Assembly: GCA_016218715.1 (NCBI GenBank)
Contig: JACRDG010000058.1
Span: 1-64,000 of the forward strand
Source of the DNA: Desulfomonile tiedjei
GTDB taxonomy: Bacteria; Desulfobacterota; Desulfomonilia; Desulfomonilales; Desulfomonilaceae
Reading direction: 5' to 3'
DNA: 64,000 bases
Shown: positions 5,507 to 54,457 of the stretch, piece by piece
How positions within the stretch are numbered: position 1 is the stretch's first letter
Layout of the letters: each line of letters begins with the position of its first letter
The notes under the pieces: generated by a model
The model's input: only the letters and a program-made list of their open reading frames with translations
Database searches by the model: none
Told to the model about the DNA's origin: nothing
Made by a program: the position numbers and the translations under genes

Positions 5507-6397
5507 CTATCCCGTGCGTCCGTGCTTGCTCCTATACGATCCGAGCAGATCTGCCAGGTGATGACGGCCAAGTCTGGTAGCGGTGTCGAGGGGAGTTTGG
5601 CCGCTGCCGTTGCACAGCTCCGGTGATGCCCCGGAGCTCAGGAGTATTTGCACGCAATTTTCGCTCCCTTTGAATACGGCCCAGTGCAGGGGTGTATCTC
5701 CTCCGTTGTCCGGGTCATCAATAACCGCACCCTTCTCCAACAGGAATTTCACCAGATCCGGCTGTCCTTCCAGACAAGCCCAGTGGAGGCAGGTTCTCCC
5801 GTTGAAATCCTTGCCGTGCAGATCCGCTCCCCGCTCCAGGAGCAGCTCCGCTGCCGACCGATGGCCTTGTCTCGCTGCCTCGATCAGAGCGGTTACCCCG
5901 TAGCGTCTATTCTTGAGGTTGACGTCGGCATGGCGATCCAGGAGTAACCTGATTACCTCCCAGTGGCCTTCCTCTGCAGCCCACGTCAGAGCTGAAGCTC
6001 CGTCTTCGCTCGATTCATCCAGTTTGGCGCCGCAATCCAGGAGCAGCTCAGCCATAGGCGTGCTTCCGGATAGGCAGCACCACATGAGAGGGGTTAGCCC
6101 CATGTAGCCGGCCGCGTGGATGTCGGCACCCGATCGGATGAGGACCTTGCCAACAGTGGCACACCCTTTTCGTGCGGCGGCTATGAGGGGAGTGTCCTCG
6201 TCCCATGCCTTGGCGTTAGGGTCAGCGCCGTGCTCCAGCAGCACTTCGACTACCTCAAGGTGATCCCCCAGGACGGCAGCTATCAACGGTGTTTTCCCCG
6301 ACCTGTCGCGGCAGTTCGCGTCAGCTCCCTCCGCGAGGAAGGCTTTGACTTCGTCGAGTCTGCCGGACAGTGCGGCCCGAAGGAGATGTATGGACAT
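5507..6397 (-). CDS. Ankyrin-repeat protein, nine repeats
   Basis: The product is about 296 residues. Translation from 6397 opens directly in the first repeat (SIHLLRAALSGRLDEVKAFL); the open frame extends 80 codons further upstream but that part lacks repeats and looks non-coding. Nine tandem 33-residue units with the G-TPL-AA-GH--VV-LLL-GAD pattern fill the protein, and it ends in a short basic tail (YRSKHGRTG). There is no signal peptide or other domain, so it probably acts as a cytoplasmic protein-binding scaffold. Other ankyrin genes occur at 24675 and 44572. Confidence 0.75.
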   Translation of the reverse strand: MSIHLLRAALSGRLDEVKAFLAEGADANCRDRSGKTPLIAAVLGDHLEVVEVLLEHGADPNAKAWDEDTPLIAAARKGCATVGKVLIRSGADIHAAGYMGLTPLMWCCLSGSTPMAELLLDCGAKLDESSEDGASALTWAAEEGHWEVIRLLLDRHADVNLKNRRYGVTALIEAARQGHRSAAELLLERGADLHGKDFNGRTCLHWACLEGQPDLVKFLLEKGAVIDDPDNGGDTPLHWAVFKGSENCVQILLSSGASPELCNGSGQTPLDTATRLGRHHLADLLGSYRSKHGRTG

Positions 6398-6938
6398 GGA
6401 TCGCCCCGACGAGGGGTTCTGCCCAGAGCCGGTTGCACGGCCTACATTTGCACCCGCGACAGCCACAGACGCGGGTCGGTTGAGGCCACTTTCGCTATTT
6501 CCTCGTTGCCAAAAAAGGCAGCAATTTCCGTGCCATCGTCGGAGTGGCGATTCCGAACCCACCGCGGCGCTTCCTGAACCGCCGAAGACCCAGGTTCTGG
6601 ACCGCTGAGATCCCCGGTCGGGCGATGATCCTGTCAAAAATCTTTCCAGGTTGTCAGGACAATAGATCCGGTGATTATCGCAGGCTCATAACAATCAACT
6701 TGTGCGGTGCGATATTGTGCGGACGCAATGCGCGGCCACAAATTGAGGATTGTCTACGGGGAAGTCGCCGGCAGGAACCCGCCCCGGGTAAGGGTCCGAA
6801 ATCACACTCCGGCAAGCCCGGTGTCTCGGTGCGACACGACAACACGATGGACAGGATTGGTCATGAGGAACCAGCACCATGATTTCTACCACTTGGAAGC
6901 ATTCAGGAAACGTTCATGATGCGTCTGGCGAGACTGGA
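6398..6938. other. Non-coding gap
   Basis: Apart from low-quality open frames there is no convincing gene. No repeat or RNA was recognised. Confidence 0.35.
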
Positions 6939-31707: not shown

Positions 31708-32880
31708 ATGAGCGACGAGTACGACGTGGAACTCACTGAGGAGCACATTATGCTCCGGGATATGGTTCGCAAATTTGCCGACAATGAAATCGCGCCGGTT
31801 GTCGACAAAGACGAGAACGAACATCGTTTTCAGCGCGAGCTGGTCGATAAAATGGCGGAACTGGGGCTCTTCGGCTGTCCGATTCCTGAGGAATACGGCG
31901 GCAACAACATGGGGTACCTCGCGCACGCCATCGTTACGGAGGAGATCGGTCGTGTCTCGGGCTCTCTGAGGGTGGCCTTCAACATGCAGACCATGGGGAC
32001 GGCCCTGTCGATTCTCAGATGGGGGAGTGAGGAGCTGAAGCGGAAGTACATTCCCGAACTGATGTCCGCGAAGATGCTCGGCTGCTTCGGCATCACCGAA
32101 CCCGATGCGGGTTCCGACACGGCCGCCATGTCCACCACCGCGGTGAGAGACGGCGATCACTACATCCTGAACGGCCGCAAGATGTGGATCACGTGGGCTC
32201 CCGTTGCCGACATGGCGATCATCTTCGCCATGACCGACAAGAAGGCCAAACACAAAGGGATGAGCGCCTTTGTCATGGACATGCACTCCCCGGGCGTTTC
32301 GACCATCGCCATCAAGGAAAAACTCGGGCTGTGGGCGTGCCCGACCGGCGAGGTCATCATGGAGGACGTGAAGGTCCCGGCGGGCAACCTTGTCGGCCAG
32401 GAAGGTCACGGATTCGGCCATCTGATGCAGGAACTGGTCAGCACCAGGCTCAGTGCCGCGGCCGGTGGAGTGGGAACGTGCCAGGCGGCTGTGGACGCGG
32501 CCATCAAATACGCCACGGAACGCAGGCAATTCGGCCGTGCCATTGCCGATTACCAGATGGTCCAGGAAGTCATCGCGCGCATGGTGGTGGAGACCGAAGC
32601 TGCCCGCGCACTCGTCTGGCGCTGCGCGATCCAAAAGGACCGCGGTCTCATCAACAACATGCGCGAGACCGTCATTGCAAAATTCTACGCGTGCCGTGCA
32701 GCCGACGAGGTCCCGAACCTGGGACTCGAGGTATTGAGCGCCTACGGCTATTCCAACGAGTATCCCATTGCAAGGATACTGCGGGACGGAAAGGTGTACA
32801 AGATTCTTGAAGGCGCCACGAACATCATGAAGATGATCATCGCCACCGATGCGCTGGGAATCAAGAAAGCCAACAGATAA
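31708..32880 (+). CDS. Acyl-CoA dehydrogenase
   Basis: 390 residues, full length for the family. FAD-linked dehydrogenation of an acyl-CoA in the cytoplasm, with electrons normally passed to ETF. Landmarks: FGCPIPEEYGGNNMGYLAHA, GCFGITEPDAGSDTAAMSTT, the WITWAPVADMAII segment and GEVIMEDVKVPAGNLVGQEG. The closing segment KILEGATNIMKMIIATDALG has Glu in the position of the usual catalytic residue. It resembles glutaryl-CoA dehydrogenases of anaerobes, but substrate is not settled. AGGAG precedes the ATG. Confidence 0.85.
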   Translation: MSDEYDVELTEEHIMLRDMVRKFADNEIAPVVDKDENEHRFQRELVDKMAELGLFGCPIPEEYGGNNMGYLAHAIVTEEIGRVSGSLRVAFNMQTMGTALSILRWGSEELKRKYIPELMSAKMLGCFGITEPDAGSDTAAMSTTAVRDGDHYILNGRKMWITWAPVADMAIIFAMTDKKAKHKGMSAFVMDMHSPGVSTIAIKEKLGLWACPTGEVIMEDVKVPAGNLVGQEGHGFGHLMQELVSTRLSAAAGGVGTCQAAVDAAIKYATERRQFGRAIADYQMVQEVIARMVVETEAARALVWRCAIQKDRGLINNMRETVIAKFYACRAADEVPNLGLEVLSAYGYSNEYPIARILRDGKVYKILEGATNIMKMIIATDALGIKKANR

Positions 32881-44571: not shown

Positions 44572-47193
44572 TTAATTCCCCGCGTCCGCCCACGATTCGT
44601 GCATGGAGTCCGATTTCAGGAATCCGGTGAGGCTGGCTCCCACTCCTTTCAGATAGGCCGCTACCTCGGGATGCCCTTCTATGTAGGCTTCCATCAACGC
44701 AGTCCACCCAAAACGATTCTTGGCATTCAGATCCGCGCCCGCGTCGATAAGAACCTGAACCGCTTCGAGATGGCCGGCCGCAGCGGCCACCATAAGCGCG
44801 GTCTTGTCGTCCCGGTCTCTGACGGCAACCCCGGCGCCATGATCGAGGACCAGTCTGATGACATCGCACGATCCTGCTCGGGCAGCCCAAAACAAAGGCG
44901 TGCTCCCAAACTTGTTCCTCACCTGTACGTCCGCTCCGCGCTCGAGGAGAAGCTGTACCACCTCGCTGCGGCCTTTGTAACAGGCCCAGAAGAGCGGCGT
45001 GTTGCCGTACTTCGCATCGCGCACATTGACATCGGCCCCCTTTGCCAGTAGCGCGTCGATGATATGCGCATGACCGAGCCTGCAGGCTTCCGCAAGTGCA
45101 GTATTGGCCTTTCTTTCGCGGTACGGCGAAGGTTCGGCATCCAGGAGCATTTGCACAAGCTTGGAACGACCCGATCTCAGGGCGTACGTGAGCGGAGTGT
45201 TGTCCCGCCGATCGGCAGCATTTACGTTCGCCCCGCGGCCCAGCAGGAATTCCACGATCCTTTGATGGCCCGCCCGGCACGCTGCCATCAAAGGAGTAAT
45301 CCCGGAACGGTTGGCGGCATCGAGTGAGGCGCCGGTATCGGCCAGCAGCCTCGCAACCTCCATTCGCCCTTTGTGGCAAGCCCAGGAGAGGGCTGTGTTC
45401 CCTGAAAACCTGTCGCGGCCGCTGACGTCGGCTCCTTTGGAGAGGAGAAACGCCACCATCCAAACATTCCCCGCGTAAGCAGCCCATGCCAGAGCCGCGT
45501 TCCCGTAGCGCCCATCCTCTGCGTTGATATGCGCGCCGCGAGAAAGGAGGAGTTCCACTGTTTCAGCGTGTCCTTTGAACGCGGCCCGGCACAAAGGCCG
45601 CCCCTCGCGTTCGCCGACTCCGTTGGGCGCCGCTCCGTGATCGAGGAGAATGCGAACGGAGCCCGCGTCACCCCTCTCGCAAGCCACCAGCAATGGAGTG
45701 GAGCCTCGCTTGTTGGTCACGTCGGGTTCGGCACCCCTGTTCAGGAGCAGCCTCACCGTATCCGGGTTCCCCGATCGACTCGCCCAGAGGAGCGGCGTAT
45801 TCCCCGCAAAATCCCTGGCGTGGACATGGGCACCGCCCCCGATCAGGAGTGGCGCTACCCGGACATGGCCCCAATGCAGAGCCCAATAGAGCGCTGTGGT
45901 GCCATACTGCCGTTCCACAGCGTTCGGATCTGCGCCGTCTGCTAAGAGGATCTCTACGACCCGTTCCGCACCCGCGACCGCGGCCCAAAAGAGCGCAGTC
46001 TGGCCGGAGTTGTTTCGCTGGTTCACCGCGGCCCCGCGGCTCAGCAACAGCTCCACCAATCCTGCGTTCCCTTTGTAACCGGCCCAGAAAAGGCCGGTGT
46101 TGCCGTTGCGGCTCTTTGCATTCGGACTGGCACCGTTGTCCAACAGGACGCCCGCCGCCGACAGGGACCCTGCACTGCATGCGTAAATGAGTGCGGTCTT
46201 CCCGTTGCGGTCGGCCGCGTCGACCCGAGCCCCTCCCGCCAGCAGTGCTTCCACCACAGCGGAGTGCCCGGCCCCCGACGCAGCCATCAACGGAGTATGG
46301 CCCTTCAGGTTACGTTGTTGAACGTCTCCCCCTCGTGACAGGAGACTCTGCACGACACCTGCATGCCCTTTCGAGGCCGCGCTGAAGAGCGGAGAAACTC
46401 CTGCCTTGTTGCTCGCCCCGACCTGTGCACCGTGGGACAGCAGGAGATCCACGATTGCCTGATCACCCGTATCCGAGGCCCAAAATAGCGCAGTGCAACC
46501 GGTGGCTGCCTCCGCTGCATTAACATCGGCCCCGCGGTCCAGCAGGAACTCGGCCACATCGAAGTCGCACGCCTTCACGGCTAGGATCAGAGGGGTATTC
46601 CCTCCGGCATCCCGGTGGTCGATGTTGGCGCCTCGCGCGAGGAAAAGCTCTGCCAGTTCCGGGCGACCCGACGCGACGGCCAATACCAGGGCGAAGTCCC
46701 GGTCGTCGTTTTCTGCATGAATTCGCGCACCGCGGTTCACGAGGTATTCCGCCACCCCCACGTGCCCTTGCCGAATACTCCACGACAAGGCCGTATTCCC
46801 CTCGCCGTCGGCCAAATTCGGGTCAGCTCCTCGCTCGCACAAGAATTCAACTATGTCCAGGTGGCCCCATTGCGCAGCCTTGAGGAGAGCCGTGTCTCCG
46901 TCGCGGTTGGCGGCATCGATCTGCGCACCCGCGTCCAAAAGGAGTTGCACTATGTCAAGGTGGGCTCCCAGCGCCGCTTCCATTAACGCCGTGTTGCCCA
47001 ACCGATCGCGGGCGTCGCGGTCCGCGCCCGATCGGAGGAGTACTTCGACTACGCCACGGTTGCCCCCCAGAACCGCTGCTATGAGAGGTCTACCTTGCGC
47101 TGTGTCCGCGTCGGGGTGATCCCCTCGGGACAGAAGTTCCACCACTCTCTCGATATTCCCGAGACGCGCTGAGTGAACAAGTTCATCTTCCAT
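44572..47193 (-). CDS. Giant ankyrin-repeat protein (26 repeats)
   Basis: About 873 residues. GGGAAGG precedes the ATG at 47193; the 23-codon extension upstream lacks a binding site. I count 26 tandem 33-residue ankyrin units from the start (EDELVHSARLGNIERVVELL) to the end (GWTALMEAYIEGHPEVAAYL), with little else. Unit 5 or 6 and 21 are the most worn (RDFALVLAVASGRPEL; DNTPLTYALRSGRS). No signal peptide or catalytic domain. It probably makes a long cytoplasmic scaffold for protein binding. A promoter lies at 47335-47363. Confidence 0.85.
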   Translation of the reverse strand: MEDELVHSARLGNIERVVELLSRGDHPDADTAQGRPLIAAVLGGNRGVVEVLLRSGADRDARDRLGNTALMEAALGAHLDIVQLLLDAGAQIDAANRDGDTALLKAAQWGHLDIVEFLCERGADPNLADGEGNTALSWSIRQGHVGVAEYLVNRGARIHAENDDRDFALVLAVASGRPELAELFLARGANIDHRDAGGNTPLILAVKACDFDVAEFLLDRGADVNAAEAATGCTALFWASDTGDQAIVDLLLSHGAQVGASNKAGVSPLFSAASKGHAGVVQSLLSRGGDVQQRNLKGHTPLMAASGAGHSAVVEALLAGGARVDAADRNGKTALIYACSAGSLSAAGVLLDNGASPNAKSRNGNTGLFWAGYKGNAGLVELLLSRGAAVNQRNNSGQTALFWAAVAGAERVVEILLADGADPNAVERQYGTTALYWALHWGHVRVAPLLIGGGAHVHARDFAGNTPLLWASRSGNPDTVRLLLNRGAEPDVTNKRGSTPLLVACERGDAGSVRILLDHGAAPNGVGEREGRPLCRAAFKGHAETVELLLSRGAHINAEDGRYGNAALAWAAYAGNVWMVAFLLSKGADVSGRDRFSGNTALSWACHKGRMEVARLLADTGASLDAANRSGITPLMAACRAGHQRIVEFLLGRGANVNAADRRDNTPLTYALRSGRSKLVQMLLDAEPSPYRERKANTALAEACRLGHAHIIDALLAKGADVNVRDAKYGNTPLFWACYKGRSEVVQLLLERGADVQVRNKFGSTPLFWAARAGSCDVIRLVLDHGAGVAVRDRDDKTALMVAAAAGHLEAVQVLIDAGADLNAKNRFGWTALMEAYIEGHPEVAAYLKGVGASLTGFLKSDSMHESWADAGN

Positions 47194-47334
47194 GAGTGTG
47201 TGACCTTCCCAGCAGTCCCATGCAGGTTTCGTCTCAACGAGGTTCTCCGCGATGGTATGCAATTGAGTGTCCCGCCCTTTTCGTTCGCAGAAACAGTTGC
47301 CATCGGGTGCACCGATGGTTTGATATTTTTAGCT

Positions 47335-47363: not shown

Positions 47364-48021
47364 GGGGTTCCATAAAACCACTGCCAAACTGCAGTGGGAG
47401 ACCTCTATGAATCGCGGTTGAAACCTCAATGAGTTGAAGCCCCGATTGTTCGACGGAAAGACAGGCTCATGACTGCGGCTTGCACGTCAGATGAAGGGGC
47501 TCGTTATGCTGGTGTGTAAAAAAAACACCAATCCGGACTCGCGCGTGCTACTTCCGCACATCGAGAAATCCACAGTGGCGGCCGATTAGATCCCCTCAGT
47601 CGAATTTGCCGTGCTACTTCCGCACACTACCGGGCCTTGGCCGCAGATCCCGGATCGCCCATCGAACAGGTTAACAGTCCCTAACCCTATTGAATAACGT
47701 CACAATAGTTATAGCGCCTCCCGCCTATGATCTGGCACGATATTTGCTTGTCCGTTCCAGAGGTATGTGCCGAATGAGAGTTATACATCAAGTGAAAAAG
47801 TATACTTGCACCCTGTGGAGAAAGTGTGTACTATGCGGTCCCAGAGTTCGCAGGGATAGAAGTCATAGACACCGACTGATCAGAGCAATATATGACGTAG
47901 GGATGATGCACATAGGTTTGTTCTCCTGTGGCACATCCACGCGACAGTTGCCTTTGTTCACTGTAATGAACAAATCCATATAGCGAAACGACTAAACACA
48001 CTTGTGTGCGAGGGGGTTGCC
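47364..48021 (+). promoter_or_regulatory. Intergenic region with repeats and a PAS-LuxR promoter
   Basis: It holds two direct copies of CGTGCTACTTCCGCACA (47546-47562 and about 47610-47626). A plus-strand promoter follows: TTGCAC (47806-47811), 17-nt spacer, TACTAT (47829-47834), 188 nt before the start at 48022. The open frame at 47690-47983 lacks domain features and was not called. Confidence 0.45.
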
Positions 48022-49449
48022 ATGCGACAGGCAGGCTACGGCAATTTGGCCAAAGGCGTACGTGCTCTTCTCGACGCCGAAACGAAACTGAAAGAGAGCG
48101 AAAGCAAGTATAGGTCTCTGGAAGCCGCTATTGATGATGCCGTTGTCATCCACGACGTCAATGGAAAAGTACTTCAGGTTAATGCACATTTTGAACGAAC
48201 GTTCGGCTGGACCGCTGATGAGGCCGTGCGGCTTCGGGTGCCCTACATTCCCCCAAACGAACGCTCCGCGGTGCTGAGGAAGTTTCGCCAAATCCTCTCC
48301 GAGGGAACGCCTACGAGCATCGAAAGGAAACTTCAGGCTAAAGATGGAACTGTTCTGGAGGGGATCATGCGGTTGTCCCCCTTGCTGGACAACACCGGGA
48401 AACCTGCCGGGATGTATGTAATCCTGCGAGACGTGACGAAAGAACGAACGCTGGAGCGCATGGTCATAGAAGGTCATCCGAGCGAAGTTCGTGGTGTCTC
48501 CCGGCAGCCCCAGTCATCGCAGCAGGAATCGGGCGATGCAGGTGAAGAAGAGGAGCATCCCAAAGAGATCGAGCTGGTATACCGGAAGTTCTTCCAGAAT
48601 AGCACCCAGGGGGTCGCAATCGTTGACCGGAACGCCACCTCTGCAGAGGTCAACGCGGCGTTGAAGCGCATGCTCGGATACTCGCCGATGAGACAGTTTT
48701 CGGCGGAGGATTGGGCGACACGACTTCCCGTGCAACTGCGTTTGGCGGATTCGGACGCATGGAGAGGAGCCCTCTCAGAGAGCGGACTCGTCAATCACCG
48801 AATGGAAGTAGCCAGGCGGGAAGGACCCAGGGGAATGTTCCTCGTGAACGCGTCGGTGCTGGAGAGACGCCGAGACGGAAATCACCTGGTCGCGTGGACT
48901 TTTTCCGACATAACCGACTGGGAAACCGCGGCGCCGAAACCCTCCCCAGAGCCTCCAGCGTCGGGCCGGTCCCCGCGGAAAGCCCCCACCAAACCTTCCC
49001 GCGCTGCCGCAGGGAAAGGTGAGGTCGACGCGTCAGTGAAGAAACTCATGGACCGCGCCAGAGAACAGGGCGAAGACATGATGGCGCGGATCACTCAGAA
49101 TTACGCGCTTACCGTCTACCCTCTCATCGAGCATTTGAAAACGCTCGATCTGGAGCAGTCCCAGCTCGTAATCCTGGAGACGCTCGATTTCAACATCAGA
49201 CACATGACATCCCTTTTTGGGGTGAATCTGGCGAAGGCGCGGCACCCCTTGACCACGCGGGAATTGGAGATCTGCCAATTGATCCGTTCGGGGAAAGATT
49301 CGCGTGAGATCGCGGAAACGTTGGGGCTCACGTACGAGACGGTTATGGTACATCGTAAGCATATCCGAAAGAAACTTGGCCTCAAGAACGACAAGCAGTC
49401 TCTGGCAGGGTTCCTCAACCGCGATCTCGAGCCGTCATCGGGGAGTTGA
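48022..49449 (+). CDS. PAS-PAS-LuxR transcription regulator
   Basis: About 475 residues. Start at 48022 (MRQAGYGNLAKGV); an ATG six codons upstream is possible. Residues 30-150 form a PAS domain (YRSLEAAIDDAVVIHDVNGK) with C-terminal VILRDVTKER. A second PAS spans about 195-310 (FFQNSTQGVAIVDRNATSAE). After a low-complexity linker and a helical region (RAREQGEDMMARITQNYALT), the LuxR helix-turn-helix sits at the C-terminus (LTTRELEICQLIRSGKDSRE, YETVMVHRKHIRKKLGLKN). It probably senses a cytoplasmic ligand or redox state. Confidence 0.85.
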   Translation: MRQAGYGNLAKGVRALLDAETKLKESESKYRSLEAAIDDAVVIHDVNGKVLQVNAHFERTFGWTADEAVRLRVPYIPPNERSAVLRKFRQILSEGTPTSIERKLQAKDGTVLEGIMRLSPLLDNTGKPAGMYVILRDVTKERTLERMVIEGHPSEVRGVSRQPQSSQQESGDAGEEEEHPKEIELVYRKFFQNSTQGVAIVDRNATSAEVNAALKRMLGYSPMRQFSAEDWATRLPVQLRLADSDAWRGALSESGLVNHRMEVARREGPRGMFLVNASVLERRRDGNHLVAWTFSDITDWETAAPKPSPEPPASGRSPRKAPTKPSRAAAGKGEVDASVKKLMDRAREQGEDMMARITQNYALTVYPLIEHLKTLDLEQSQLVILETLDFNIRHMTSLFGVNLAKARHPLTTRELEICQLIRSGKDSREIAETLGLTYETVMVHRKHIRKKLGLKNDKQSLAGFLNRDLEPSSGS

Positions 49450-49769: not shown

Positions 49770-51026
49770 ATGGGAGACGAAGAGCGAAAGATACTGGTGG
49801 TCGGAGGCGGTATGAGCGGCATGAGCGTTGCCGTTGAGGCCGCCGAGGCAGGCACCGCAACAGTAATCGTGGAAAAGAATCCGTACCTGGGCGGCCGAGT
49901 GGCCCTCCTGAACCAGTATTTTCCGAAGCTGTGCCCGCCGTTCTGCGGTCTTGAGATCAACTTCAGGCGTATCAAACAGAATCCCAAGATACAGTTCCAC
50001 ACTCTTGCAGAGGTGGAATCTATCACCGGAGAACCGGGAAACTATCAGGTTACAGTTAAGATCAATCCGCGATACGTGAACGACAACTGCACCGCGTGCG
50101 GCAAGTGTGCGGAAGCGTGCCAGACCGAAATCCCGAACCCGGTGAACTACGGAATGGACAAGATCAAGGCAGCGTATCTTCCGCATGTCATGGCTTTTCC
50201 GTTCAAGTACGTTCTGGCCCCTGAGATCATCGGCACGGACGAAGCCAAGAAATGTGCTGAGGCATGCGCGTACGGCGCGGTCGATCTTGACATGCAACCT
50301 ACCACCGTCACGTACAATGTGGGTGCGGTCGTCTGGGCTACGGGCTGGGACCCCTACGACGCGACAAAAGTCGATTACCTTGGCCTGGGCCAAGTTCCCA
50401 ACGTGATCACCAGCGTAATGTTCGAACGGCTGGCCGCTGCGAGCGGACCCACCGGCGGGAAGATCGTAAGACCTTCCGACGGCAAGGAAGTGAACAGCGT
50501 CGCGTTCGTCCAGTGTGCCGGATCGCGGGACGAGAACCACCTTCCGTACTGCTCCGGGGTCTGCTGCCTGGCGTCGCTCAAACAAGCCACGTACATCCGG
50601 GAACAGGCGCCTGAAAGCAAAGCCTACATCTACTACATCGACGTGCGCGCCATGGGCAAATACGAGGACTTCTACACCAAGGTCGACGCGGATGAGAATG
50701 TTACCCTGGTGAAGAGCAAGATCGCCCGAATCTCTCCCGATCCGGAATCAGGGGGTGTCCTGGTGGAAGGGGAAGACGTCGGCAAAGGCGACAGAGTGAA
50801 GCAGGTCGTTGACCTGGCGGTACTGGCCGTGGGGATGGTCCCGGGTACTGCCGGCGTCAAGCCTCCCCTGGAGATGGAATACGACGACTTCGGCTTTGTC
50901 ACGTCTTCCGGCGCGTCGGGGATCATCCCGGCCGGCTGCGTCAAAGCCCCTATGGAAGTGGCCGCGTCGATCCAGGATTCAACCGCTGCGGCCCTGAAAG
51001 CCATCCAGTCTACGCTCGGGAGGTAA
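49770..51026 (+). CDS. qmoA: QmoA, quinone-interacting oxidoreductase subunit A
   Basis: 418 residues. An HdrA-like flavoprotein of the Qmo complex, which passes electrons from the quinone pool to APS reductase in sulfate reducers. FAD-binding GGGMSGMSVAVEAAEAGTAT at the N-terminus, ARG-free loop LCPPFCGLEINFRRIKQNPK, a 4Fe-4S site CTACGKCAEACQTEIPNP (about residues 110-130) and QCAGSRDENHLPYCSGVCCL near the middle. GGAGG precedes the ATG. It starts the three-gene operon. Confidence 0.9.
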   Translation: MGDEERKILVVGGGMSGMSVAVEAAEAGTATVIVEKNPYLGGRVALLNQYFPKLCPPFCGLEINFRRIKQNPKIQFHTLAEVESITGEPGNYQVTVKINPRYVNDNCTACGKCAEACQTEIPNPVNYGMDKIKAAYLPHVMAFPFKYVLAPEIIGTDEAKKCAEACAYGAVDLDMQPTTVTYNVGAVVWATGWDPYDATKVDYLGLGQVPNVITSVMFERLAAASGPTGGKIVRPSDGKEVNSVAFVQCAGSRDENHLPYCSGVCCLASLKQATYIREQAPESKAYIYYIDVRAMGKYEDFYTKVDADENVTLVKSKIARISPDPESGGVLVEGEDVGKGDRVKQVVDLAVLAVGMVPGTAGVKPPLEMEYDDFGFVTSSGASGIIPAGCVKAPMEVAASIQDSTAAALKAIQSTLGR

Positions 51027-51031
51027 TGTTT

Positions 51032-53167
51032 ATGGATCAGAAAATCGGAGTCTATATGTGCTCGGGATGCGGTATCGGAGAATCCATAGACATGGACGCT
51101 CTCGCCGCAGTCGCGAAGGAGTTTTCGATAGCGAAGACCGTGACCCATGAGACGCTGTGCGGAGCCGAAGGCGCGGACCTCATTCGCAAGGACGTGGAAT
51201 CGGGTGAGATCAACGCGGTCCTGATCGCAGCCTGCTCGGGCAGAGTCAAGACCGACGTGTTCACGGTCGATCCTTTGAACACGGTCCTGGAACGGGTTAA
51301 CATCAGGGAACAGGTGGCCTGGTGCCAGCCTGCAGGTGCGGAAGACACCCAGATGTTGGCCGAAGACTATCTCCGCATGGGTATCACCCGCGTGGAGAAG
51401 ACCTCTCTCCCCAAGCCTTTTCTTGAGGCTACCGACAAAAACGTGCTGGTAATCGGCGGCGGAACCGCTGGCTTGCAGTCCGCACTCGATGCCGCGACCG
51501 CGGGGTTCAAGGTGCTCCTCGTCGAGAAAGAAGCCCAGTTGGGCGGACACATGGCCCGGTGGCACAAGAATACCCCAACCAAGCCTCCGTACCACGATCT
51601 CGAAGACGTCGCTATCCAGCAGACCATCGATCAGGTGACTGCCAACTCCAACATCACTGTCTGCGCGAATACGATCATCGAAAAGATCGCCGGCGCTCCC
51701 GGCATGTTTGACGTTACCCTGAACAACGGCGAGACTCATCGCGTCGGAAGCGTGGTTCTCGCTGCCGGTTGGAAACCGTACGACCCCGCGAAACTCGAAC
51801 ATCTCGGGTACGGCAAGTTTCCTGACGTCATTACCAACGTTCAAATGGAGGAGATGGCCAAGGCCGGCAAGGTCACCTGCCCATCCGACGGATCGGAACC
51901 TTCTGTCGTTGCTTTCATTCAGTGCGCAGGTTCCCGCGATCCGGACCACCTGCCCTATTGCAGTGCGGTCTGCTGCAGGGTCTCGCTGAAGCAAGCGGTG
52001 TACGTAAAAGAACAGAACGAGGAGAACAAGGTCTTCGTCCTGTACAAAGATATGCGGACGCCGGAGCAGAGCGAAGAGTTCTACAAGAAAGTTCAGAAGG
52101 ACGGCGTGGTCTTCGTCAAGACGGATACCGCGAAGGTGGCCATTAGTGAGGGAAGCGAGCACAAGCTCGCTATTGAAGGCATGGATGAGCTTTTGGGCGA
52201 ACCGTTGATGGTGGAGGCCGATCTCGTGGTCTTGGCTACGGGCATGCAGCCGGCGGTTTTGGACGACCCGATCTTGAACCTGCAGTATCGCCAGGGTCCG
52301 GCGCTTCCCGACCTGAAGTACGGTTTCCCCGACTCCCATTTCGTCTGCTTCCCGTACGAGACGAGGCGGACCGGTATCTACACCGCGGGATGTGTCCGGC
52401 AACCGATGACAGCCTCAAGAGCGACCAACGACGGCACCGGCGCGGCGTTGAAGGCAATTCAGTGCGCGGAACTGACGTCACAGGGTCGTGCCGTTCATCC
52501 CAGGGCAGGGGATTATTCGTATCCCGAACTGTTCCTCACGCGATGCACCCAGTGTAAGCGGTGTACGGAGGAATGCCCCTTCGGCATGTACAACGAGGAT
52601 GAAAAAGGCACCCCGTTGCCCCATCCGTCCCGATGCCGGCGATGCGCCATTTGCATGGGTTCGTGTCCGGAGCGCATCATTTCTTTCTACAACTACTCGG
52701 TGGACATGATCGGTTCCATGGTGAAATCGATCCACGTGCCGGACGAGTACGACGAGAAACCACGCGTTATCGGATTCATTTGCGAAAACGACGCGTATCC
52801 GGCCGTGGACATGGCGGGTCTCCACAAGTTGCAGTATCCGCCCTGGGTGCGTTTTATTCCACTCAGGTGTCTCGGCTCTATGAACCTTGTGTGGATCGCG
52901 GATGCCCTTTCGAAGGGAATAGATGGTATAATACTCTTCGGGTGTCGATTCGGCGACGATTACCAGTGTCACTTTATTCAAGGAAGCGAGCTTGCCGATA
53001 CCCGTATGAGCAAGATCAAAGAGACCCTCGACCGCCTGGTGTTGGAATCGGACCGGATCAGGTTGGAGCAGATCACCATCGACAACTATCACCGGATACC
53101 GACTATTATCGAGGAGTTCACGGCAAGGCTGGAAGAACTCGGTCCCAACCCGTACAAGGGGTTCTAG
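51032..53167 (+). CDS. qmoB: QmoB, quinone-interacting oxidoreductase subunit B
   Basis: 711 residues. Start at 51032 has GGGAGG eight bases before it; the ATG at 51026 overlaps the qmoA stop. The N-terminal part (KIGVYMCSGCGIGESIDMDA) and FAD-binding LVIGGGTAGLQSALDAATAG are HdrA-like. Two ferredoxin clusters, CTQCKRCTEECPFGMYNEDE and CRRCAICMGSCPERIISFYN, follow, then an MvhD-like end (FGCRFGDDYQCHFIQGSELA). It forms the core of the Qmo electron-transfer complex with QmoA. Confidence 0.9.
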   Translation: MDQKIGVYMCSGCGIGESIDMDALAAVAKEFSIAKTVTHETLCGAEGADLIRKDVESGEINAVLIAACSGRVKTDVFTVDPLNTVLERVNIREQVAWCQPAGAEDTQMLAEDYLRMGITRVEKTSLPKPFLEATDKNVLVIGGGTAGLQSALDAATAGFKVLLVEKEAQLGGHMARWHKNTPTKPPYHDLEDVAIQQTIDQVTANSNITVCANTIIEKIAGAPGMFDVTLNNGETHRVGSVVLAAGWKPYDPAKLEHLGYGKFPDVITNVQMEEMAKAGKVTCPSDGSEPSVVAFIQCAGSRDPDHLPYCSAVCCRVSLKQAVYVKEQNEENKVFVLYKDMRTPEQSEEFYKKVQKDGVVFVKTDTAKVAISEGSEHKLAIEGMDELLGEPLMVEADLVVLATGMQPAVLDDPILNLQYRQGPALPDLKYGFPDSHFVCFPYETRRTGIYTAGCVRQPMTASRATNDGTGAALKAIQCAELTSQGRAVHPRAGDYSYPELFLTRCTQCKRCTEECPFGMYNEDEKGTPLPHPSRCRRCAICMGSCPERIISFYNYSVDMIGSMVKSIHVPDEYDEKPRVIGFICENDAYPAVDMAGLHKLQYPPWVRFIPLRCLGSMNLVWIADALSKGIDGIILFGCRFGDDYQCHFIQGSELADTRMSKIKETLDRLVLESDRIRLEQITIDNYHRIPTIIEEFTARLEELGPNPYKGF

Positions 53168-53296
53168 AGGCCCTTGCGGACAAGGCATGAATCATCGGGC
53201 CGCTAGGGCCTGAGAAAAAATCGGACCGCCGGCGTCGCTCGAGGACCGATGACCTCGCAGCGGCGTTCGGCCGGTCTGACAGTTCAGGGAAGATCT

Positions 53297-54457
53297 ATGG
53301 AAACAAGAGTACCTTTTCTCGAAGTGAGCGACGCTATCGTCATGTCAGGGGCTGAGAGCCTCTACTGGTGCATGCAGTGCGGTCTGTGCACGGGCACGTG
53401 CCCCTGGCGCCTGGTTCCAGGGGAGGCGTCGGAGCAGTTCAATATCAGACTGGTGCAGCGCATGGGCCAGCTCGGCCTGGAAGGGTTCGAATCGGAGAAC
53501 TGCCTCTTTGCCTGCACCACCTGCAAGGCTTGTGCAGTGCGGTGTCCGCGTGGCGTGGACATCATCGCGAACGTCCGAGGGATGCGGAGCATGCTGGCCG
53601 AGGTAGGAACCATACCGCCCAGCCTCAAACCGATAGCCGGAAGCCTCCATTCACAAGGGAACCCGTGGTCAGGAGATCGAGCCAAGCGGATCGACTGGGT
53701 GAAAGATGCTGACGTTCCCACCTTCTCGGCTGACACCGAGTACTTCCTCTCCGTGTGCTGCACGTCCTGTTACGATGTCAGGAGCCAGCGCATTGCCCGG
53801 TCTGTGGCCAAAGCTCTCAAGGCAGCCGGTGTGAGTTTCGGCATCATCGGAAACGAGGAGAGCTGCTGCGGAGAGTCCATCCGCAAGGTGGGCGACGAAG
53901 CGCTCTTTCAGAAACTCGCTCAGTCCAACATCGAGCTGTACAAGAGCAAGGGCGTCAAGAAGATCATCGTCACGTCGCCTCACTGCCTCCATACGTTCAA
54001 GAACGAATATCCGGAACTCGGCGGAGAGTTCGAGGTGTACCACTACACCGAGATCCTCAGCAAGGCCGTTACGGAAGGCACGTTGAAGCTTTCCGGCGAT
54101 GCTGCGGGTCCGGTGGCGCTGCACGACCCGTGCTATCTGGGCCGCCACAGCGAAGTCTACGATGCGCCGCGAGACCTGATCTCCGCGATCCCGGGTGCGG
54201 AATTGAAAGAACTTGCCAGGAACCGCCAGAACAGCCTTTGTTGCGGAGGTGGAGGCGGCCGAGTATGGATGGAAACCAAAGCCGGTGAACGATTCGCAGA
54301 GCTGAGGATAACCGAAGCAGTGGAAGCGGGCGCCAAGACCCTGGTCACTGCATGCCCGTACTGCATCACGATGCTGGAAGACTCCTGTAACGTGATGGGA
54401 AAGTCCGAACAGCTCAAAGTGATCGACCTCTCCGAATTGATCGCCGAGAAAGTGTAA
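53297..54457 (+). CDS. HdrC-HdrB fused (HdrD-like) Fe-S protein
   Basis: 386 residues. AGGGA lies 6 nt before the ATG at 53297. Two 4Fe-4S motifs at the N-terminus (YWCMQCGLCTGTCPWRLVPG and CTTCKACAVRCPRGVDIIAN) are followed by two cysteine-rich CCG domains (VCCTSCYDVRSQRIARSVAK with EESCCGE; HDPCYLGRHSEVYDAPRDLI with SLCCGGGGGRVW and CPYC). No membrane segment exists, whereas QmoC normally has an HdrE-like membrane half. It is the third gene after qmoAB, 129 bp on, and presumably takes QmoC's place as an electron mediator. Confidence 0.85.
   Translation: METRVPFLEVSDAIVMSGAESLYWCMQCGLCTGTCPWRLVPGEASEQFNIRLVQRMGQLGLEGFESENCLFACTTCKACAVRCPRGVDIIANVRGMRSMLAEVGTIPPSLKPIAGSLHSQGNPWSGDRAKRIDWVKDADVPTFSADTEYFLSVCCTSCYDVRSQRIARSVAKALKAAGVSFGIIGNEESCCGESIRKVGDEALFQKLAQSNIELYKSKGVKKIIVTSPHCLHTFKNEYPELGGEFEVYHYTEILSKAVTEGTLKLSGDAAGPVALHDPCYLGRHSEVYDAPRDLISAIPGAELKELARNRQNSLCCGGGGGRVWMETKAGERFAELRITEAVEAGAKTLVTACPYCITMLEDSCNVMGKSEQLKVIDLSELIAEKV

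Follow-up and report, generated by a model that had tools for sequence, protein, structure and literature searches.

The window (the whole 64,000-nucleotide stretch of DNA that was analysed) lies on contig C12 of a Desulfomonile tiedjei genome of 5.55 Mb (99.99% complete, 3.71% contamination) and carries a triad of genes in the order qmoA-qmoB-hdrD, the last of which encodes a soluble protein of the HdrD type. The features of the locus are as follows:

48004..49449, + strand: regulator of PAS-LuxR type (PAS and GerE domains) just upstream of the triad, to which its belonging is uncertain
49770..51026, + strand: qmoA2, 418 aa, HdrA-like flavoprotein (best NCBIfam match HdrA2, 346 bits, under the cut-off of 1100)
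50088..50120, + strand: inserted CxxCxxCxxxC of QmoA2, Cys107/110/113/117, aligning with the HdrA insert cysteines of PDB 5odc_A
51032..53167, + strand: qmoB2, 711 aa, HdrA-like flavoprotein with a ferredoxin domain and an FlpD/MvhD domain (FlpD PF02662, E 4.6e-42)
51059..51235, + strand: HdrA-type N-terminal cysteines of QmoB2, Cys10/13/43/68, of which Cys10, 43 and 68 align with HdrA cysteines (PDB 5odc)
53297..54457, + strand: hdrD-like third gene, 386 aa, soluble HdrC+HdrB fusion (HdrD type), from the open frame, profile and structure matches and a hydropathy scan
53369..53401, + strand: 4Fe-4S motif 1 of the HdrD-like protein, Cys25/28/31/35, invariant in 37 aligned rows
53513..53545, + strand: 4Fe-4S motif 2, Cys73/76/79/83, invariant in the same 37 rows
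53756..53986, + strand: CCG module 1, Cys154/155, the extra Cys158, Cys190/191, Ser227 and Cys230
54131..54364, + strand: CCG module 2, Cys279, Cys315/316 and Cys353/356 (best Pfam CCG stretch, residues 273-360)

The gene qmoA2 adjoins qmoB2, for which an ATG at 51026 is a possible alternative start, and the hdrD-like gene comes next on the same strand after a gap of 129 bases. This third gene has an alternative in-frame ATG at 53249, and its relatives in loci L213 and L215 have a methionine at the position equivalent to 53297. Downstream of 54457 the next sizeable gene is on the reverse strand, and the gene set in the window is without qmoC.

The HdrD-like subunit and its surroundings

The earlier note had described the third gene product as a soluble HdrC+HdrB protein with two 4Fe-4S motifs, two CCG domains and no membrane helix, of a kind known from Gram-positive sulfate reducers, and this description is borne out by motifs, Pfam matches and hydropathy alike. 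Pfam finds CCG in two stretches (E 1.7e-30) as well as Fer4_8; a simple hydropathy scan gives no membrane helix segment, as against six in the QmoC of the same genome; and the match to the QmoC family reaches 26.7 bits, within the HdrC part, where the cut-off for the membrane protein is 300. The best solved relative is PDB 9ojn, an 'iron-sulfur-binding reductase' (E 1.1e-68), which we take to be EtfD. In an alignment of 37 rows (the window protein, 27 relatives and nine outside HdrDs), the CCG cysteines 155, 190, 191, 230, 279, 315 and 316 are invariant, Ser227 replaces the first cysteine of the CxxC in CCG module 1 throughout (37/37), and Cys353 and Cys356 are kept in every row except L218, which is shortened by a contig end. 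Cys154 is a glycine in five of the nine outside rows. The extra Cys158 is found in all 14 rows of class W, all four of class D, the DM rows L277 and L280, L050 and one outside row (L115).

aprBA was not found near the triad within the window, nor in eight loci of the family (L213-L220, 11-19 kb each). Among the identified neighbours of the triad, for which a subset of frames was searched, there are no hydrogenase, ETF or formate dehydrogenase genes and no Flx module, and in the frames as read etfBA is not adjacent to hdrD, in contrast to locus L053 described below. The upstream genes (selB and its neighbours) are common to five of 11 other loci (L215, L220, L039, L045 and L218) and give no functional hint, a 35% homologue of the PAS-LuxR regulator precedes the triad in one of the 11 (L217), and the genes just downstream are not shared across them. 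Between the conserved genes on the selB side and the regulator lies a gene for an ankyrin-repeat protein of 896 residues (44572-47262, reverse strand), and another, smaller ankyrin-repeat protein is encoded at 5510-6637 (reverse strand). At 31708-32877 (forward strand) a match to glutaryl-CoA dehydrogenase Acd scores 475.1 bits, barely above the NCBIfam cut-off of 470.

Two Qmo sets in one genome and one family

The earlier note had read the locus as a replacement of QmoC in this organism by a soluble protein. This is true of the window locus alone, and for the organism it is refuted: a QmoC family profile search of the genome found, on contig C34, the gene order aprB-aprA-qmoA-qmoB-qmoC, with a QmoC of 445.5 bits against a curated cut-off of 300, the only place in the genome above that cut-off. 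The true qmoC that the note had suggested seeking elsewhere in the genome does exist, but it belongs to its own qmoAB and not to the pair in the window. QmoC has therefore not been replaced; instead, the genome carries aprBA-qmoABC and, in the window, an additional qmoAB-hdrD set that is unlinked to apr. QmoA2 is 57% identical to the apr-linked QmoA, and QmoB2 is 48% identical to the apr-linked QmoB over residues 1-230 and 65% over residues 234-711.

A survey of 18 genomes of the Desulfomonilaceae, from 11 genera, found window-type QmoB (76% identity or more) in 17, at full length in 16 and in part in G010; it was not found in G004, a genome that is 82% complete. The apr-linked QmoB of the C34 type is present in all 18 (17 at E<=1e-150, and in G003 as a fragment at the end of a contig), and QmoC exceeds its cut-off in 15, which further counts against a replacement; in the other three (G003, G005 and G012) the apr-linked qmoB is cut by a contig edge. 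In the near-relative loci, with HdrDs 77-88% identical to that of the window, qmoB lies directly upstream in 14 of 14. aprA shares a contig with its qmoA or qmoB in 15 of the 18 genomes (14 with C34-type qmoB, and G007 with aprBA and then qmoA), and contig ends separate them in G002, G004 and G014. Contamination as the source of the two sets is ruled out, since a single 6.5-Mb contig of G011 carries both Qmo types and the tetranucleotide make-up of the window, C34 and C79 is alike (correlations 0.957-0.968). Judged by these sequence comparisons, the qmoAB-hdrD set is kept far beyond chance, and the two Qmo sets are an inherited trait of the family, for which the window gene is ordinary.

Beyond the family, 24 genomes from the other family of the class gave no QmoB match at E<=1e-150. 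Among 296 genomes of the phylum, 45 have a QmoB match at E<=1e-180, and of these 45 only four, all members of the family, had two, although second copies elsewhere may be missed because three candidates per genome were scored.

All 18 genomes have a single AprA match of at least 80%, to which the source genome adds a further piece, and G013 and G017 have an additional distant homologue (39-40%). A second full aprBA in the source genome was considered for that further piece, on contig C79, and rejected. The aprA at the start of C34 (L009, 755 to about 2200) matches that of L187, a member of another family, at 88-100% up to residue 320 (in 40-residue steps) and is 92-95% family-like at residues 361-440, and the aprA at the start of C79 (L291, 1-1126) is 91-94% family-like and ends with the contig at residue 365. 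The division of aprA between C34 and C79 is probably an assembly chimera; true recombination could also be the origin of the mixed C34 gene.

Cofactor ligands and phylogeny of the two Qmo types

The two types differ in the aligned HdrA-type cysteines, which we take to be cluster ligands. At the N-terminus of QmoB, window-type proteins have all four in 16 of 16 rows, whereas the apr-linked QmoB of the family has none in 17 genomes and one of four in the eighteenth; the source-genome example lacking them is at 4515-6797 of L009 (C34), and the apr-linked row L180 comes from G343, with places and scores equal to those of G012. All four cysteines are also present in 26 QmoABC rows, four D, seven DM, two M2 and one X row, and in 15 of 16 B rows, the sixteenth of which begins only at the edge of its contig. 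The mid-chain set (298/310/314/315) is kept in 16/16 window-type rows and is reduced to two or fewer of four in the 17 apr-linked family rows that reach the site, a loss that is not unique to the family, as it is seen in eight of 26 ordinary QmoB rows too. Similarly, the QmoA insert has its four cysteines in 13 of 14 window-type rows and one or two of them in all eight apr-linked family rows. None of the 17 apr-linked QmoB rows that extend to the ferredoxin and FlpD cysteines has lost any of them; in window-type QmoB the ferredoxin cysteines are complete in 16/16 and the FlpD cysteines in 15/16, the sixteenth being cut by an internal stop. A lysine matching Lys409 of HdrA, presumably with a role at the flavin site, is present in all 16 window-type QmoBs. 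This contrast in QmoB cysteines was not met in the Qmo literature examined, the searches of which were not aimed at QmoB cysteine loss.

Concatenated QmoA+QmoB trees (a careful one of 41 rows chosen from 73, and a quick one of all 73) place the window-type rows in one clade and the apr-linked family rows in another, each at 100/100. Both fall outside the ordinary Desulfobacterota QmoABC clade, by a split with 99/98 support (nine ordinary rows in the careful tree, 23 in the quick one), and the QmoC-bearing rows L191 and L290 fall on the window's side of that split. The apr-linked family rows stand beside ordinary Qmo rows at 42/51 only. In AU tests neither of two arrangements was rejected: uniting the window-type and apr-linked family rows in one clade gave p-AU 0.596, with a likelihood slightly above that of the free tree, and placing the window-type with Gram-positive rows gave p-AU 0.178. 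The trees are compatible with Gram-positive, Chloroflexi or apr-linked family copies as the nearest kin of the window QmoAB. Window-type HdrD is separated from five Chloroflexi HdrDs at 100/100 and groups with the apr-linked HdrDs and L050 at 86/93 only. In a quick tree the family AprA lies within a Gram-positive/Chloroflexi group, apart from ordinary Desulfobacterota AprA; because the C34 aprA is probably chimeric its row (C_L009) is taken as mixed, and the placement rests on five other family rows. It is in line with published excerpts reporting that some Desulfobacterota carry Gram-positive aprBA (PMC4148979, PMC2211403).

Relation to known systems and possible function

Both D. tiedjei sets have been mentioned before, separately, in two papers of 2014: passages of PMC4148979 link QmoAB to an Fe-S oxidoreductase/HdrD in Desulfosporosinus and D. 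tiedjei, and passages of PMC4149029 give D. tiedjei a complete qmoABC. QmoAB-HdrBC or QmoAB-HdrD is further described, in part of PMC10504309, as likely in Gram-positives and present in some Deltaproteobacteria and others. As QmoAB-HdrD is thus already in print for D. tiedjei, Gram-positives and other groups, the window gene belongs to a known kind; what may be a useful twist is the stripped apr-linked partner. A comparable duplication, of qmoABC with a separate qmoAB, appears in extracts from PMC3570798 for Syntrophobacter fumaroxidans, and in those from a pit-lake study (PMC9326234) the Desulfomonile-like MAG PRO_05 expressed sat and was not among the qmoABC expressers, a weak sign given that the MAG was less abundant.

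Published text on the QmoAB-HdrD of Desulfosporosinus and of Desulfobacterota affected by lateral transfer (PMC4148979, PMC10504309) describes a close likeness. The same gene order, HdrDs 60-63% identical to that of the window and the kept QmoB cysteines occur in L190 (of the same phylum), L227 (a Desulfosporosinus record), L231 (titled Deltaproteobacteria) and L278. However, the triads of these four loci are linked to aprBA, a usual though not strictly defining feature of QmoAB-HdrD, whereas the window set is apr-unlinked and coexists with aprBA-qmoABC. L277 and L280 have the triad (HdrD again 60-63%) with aprBA plus a qmoC-like gene. Of these six loci with triad and aprBA, one is from a Desulfosporosinus, three are from the class of Desulfotomaculum copahuensis and two from Desulfobacterota. 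Chloroflexi-type loci (L228, L287, L288 and L289) combine aprBA, qmoA, qmoB, an hdrD (45-49%) and a qmoC-like gene, with both kinds of third subunit in one set. In the D. copahuensis class, 62 of 85 genomes have a match, and of 16 loci from it nine have an HdrC-like match after qmoB, three an HdrC-like match beyond aprBA, three HdrD and one only a qmoC-like gene.

Ordinary Desulfobacterota QmoABC has a membrane third subunit, and its QmoB is 48-59% identical to QmoB2 over the length (full-length rows outside the family, excluding G047, G083, G114 and G132, where qmoB is not followed by QmoC). The Desulfotomaculum QmoAB-HdrBC, as far as passages of PMC4148979, PMC4149029 and PMC4759654 describe it, resembles the window set in its soluble third part and lack of QmoC, but has separate HdrC and HdrB genes in place of one fused gene. 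With the methanogen HdrABC-MvhD (PDB 5odc, 8rvu) the window set shares HdrA-type sequence, cluster cysteines, the flavin-site lysine, an FlpD/MvhD domain and HdrC and CCG modules; it differs in its two HdrA-like subunits, its fused HdrCB and the lack of identified hydrogenase or formate dehydrogenase genes beside it. ETF-linked HdrD and PDB 9ojn have the same ferredoxin and CCG architecture; the chain of 9ojn has 1042 residues, and no etf genes were identified at the window set. HdrDs 57-61% identical to the window's are found without qmoAB in the available stretch at L053, L051 and L295-L297 (the last three with 1.5-kb flanks), and more distant HdrDs (about 47%) adjoin HdrA-like pairs. At L053 (6904-14195, Desulfotomaculum copahuensis) the frames read in the order bcd-etfBA-hdrD-thiolase, with the HdrD (57%) between acyl-CoA dehydrogenase, etfBA-like and thiolase-like genes, which points to an ETF-linked use; this HdrD lacks the Cys158 of the window protein.

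We favour, with moderate confidence, a reading in which QmoAB-HdrD forms a soluble complex that provides a second, HdrA-like electron route, beside the membrane QmoABC, to the same APS reductase, the partner being inferred. Such a complex would act as a module of the HdrABC/MvhD kind: HdrD would take electrons from a dithiol or similar donor, with DsrC as the obvious candidate, QmoB would be the point of entry for a low-potential donor, and both streams would be merged by the HdrA-like flavins of the two Qmo subunits and passed on to APS reductase. Cytoplasmic donors would then be used directly via QmoAB-HdrD and menaquinol via QmoABC. Confurcation by Qmo has been proposed in excerpts of PMC6037941 and PMC7031245. 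The acceptor is the weak link of this mechanism, because aprBA is not adjacent. The favoured reading is supported by the coexistence of both sets in the family, by the kept cysteines, by the same triad with aprBA in other genomes, by the likeness of the window HdrD to qmo-linked HdrDs from Gram-positive sulfate reducers and by a family AprA of the type that passages of PMC4148979 place beside QmoAB-HdrD. The close HdrDs without qmoAB, one of them beside etfBA, count against it, as do the lack of aprBA near the triad and of identified hydrogenase, ETF or formate dehydrogenase neighbours. A bolder version, which we regard as doubtful, is that the two complexes split one job, the apr-linked QmoABC without HdrA-type clusters being a plain wire from quinol to APS reductase and QmoAB-HdrD, with its full set, a confurcating, thiol- and low-potential-driven reductant of the same enzyme.

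Somewhat unlikely, in our judgement, is that the triad is an HdrA-type module with another acceptor or donor, for example in fatty-acid or aromatic acyl-CoA oxidation via ETF, and no longer serves APS reduction. The absence of aprBA linkage from every window-type locus examined would fit, as would the HdrDs beside etfBA or without qmoAB and the distant ones that adjoin HdrA-like pairs; yet the window HdrD has the Cys158 of same-group qmo-linked HdrDs, absent from L053 and L051, no etf or acyl-CoA genes were identified adjoining the triad, and its QmoAB is of the Qmo type and so unlike the HdrA pairs (roughly 30%) in the other loci.

The roles could also be reversed, with QmoAB-HdrD as the main donor of APS reductase and the cluster-stripped QmoABC specialised or slower, as the loss of the N-terminal cysteines from the apr-linked QmoB and the Gram-positive type of AprA might suggest. 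This we consider quite unlikely, given that aprBA has kept its linkage with its own qmoAB(C) wherever contig ends do not separate them, that the apr-linked QmoB has lost none of its ferredoxin and FlpD cysteines in the rows that reach them and that part of PMC10504309 describes QmoABC as the donor in sulfate reducers. Very improbable is the view of the triad as a relic in decay since QmoABC took over: it is detached from aprBA, and in the G008 assembly an internal stop interrupts the QmoB gene, but window-type QmoB persists in nearly the whole family, with its cluster cysteines intact in nearly all rows.

The path of electrons to APS reductase, and whether Qmo merges low- and higher-potential streams on the way, is an unsettled question. 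The presence of a membrane Qmo and a soluble one side by side in this family, with HdrA-type cluster ligands lost from one of the two, would allow each part to be probed within a single kind of cell by deleting genes. If the two complexes do split the job between them, the Desulfomonilaceae would represent a natural experiment on whether Qmo confurcates.
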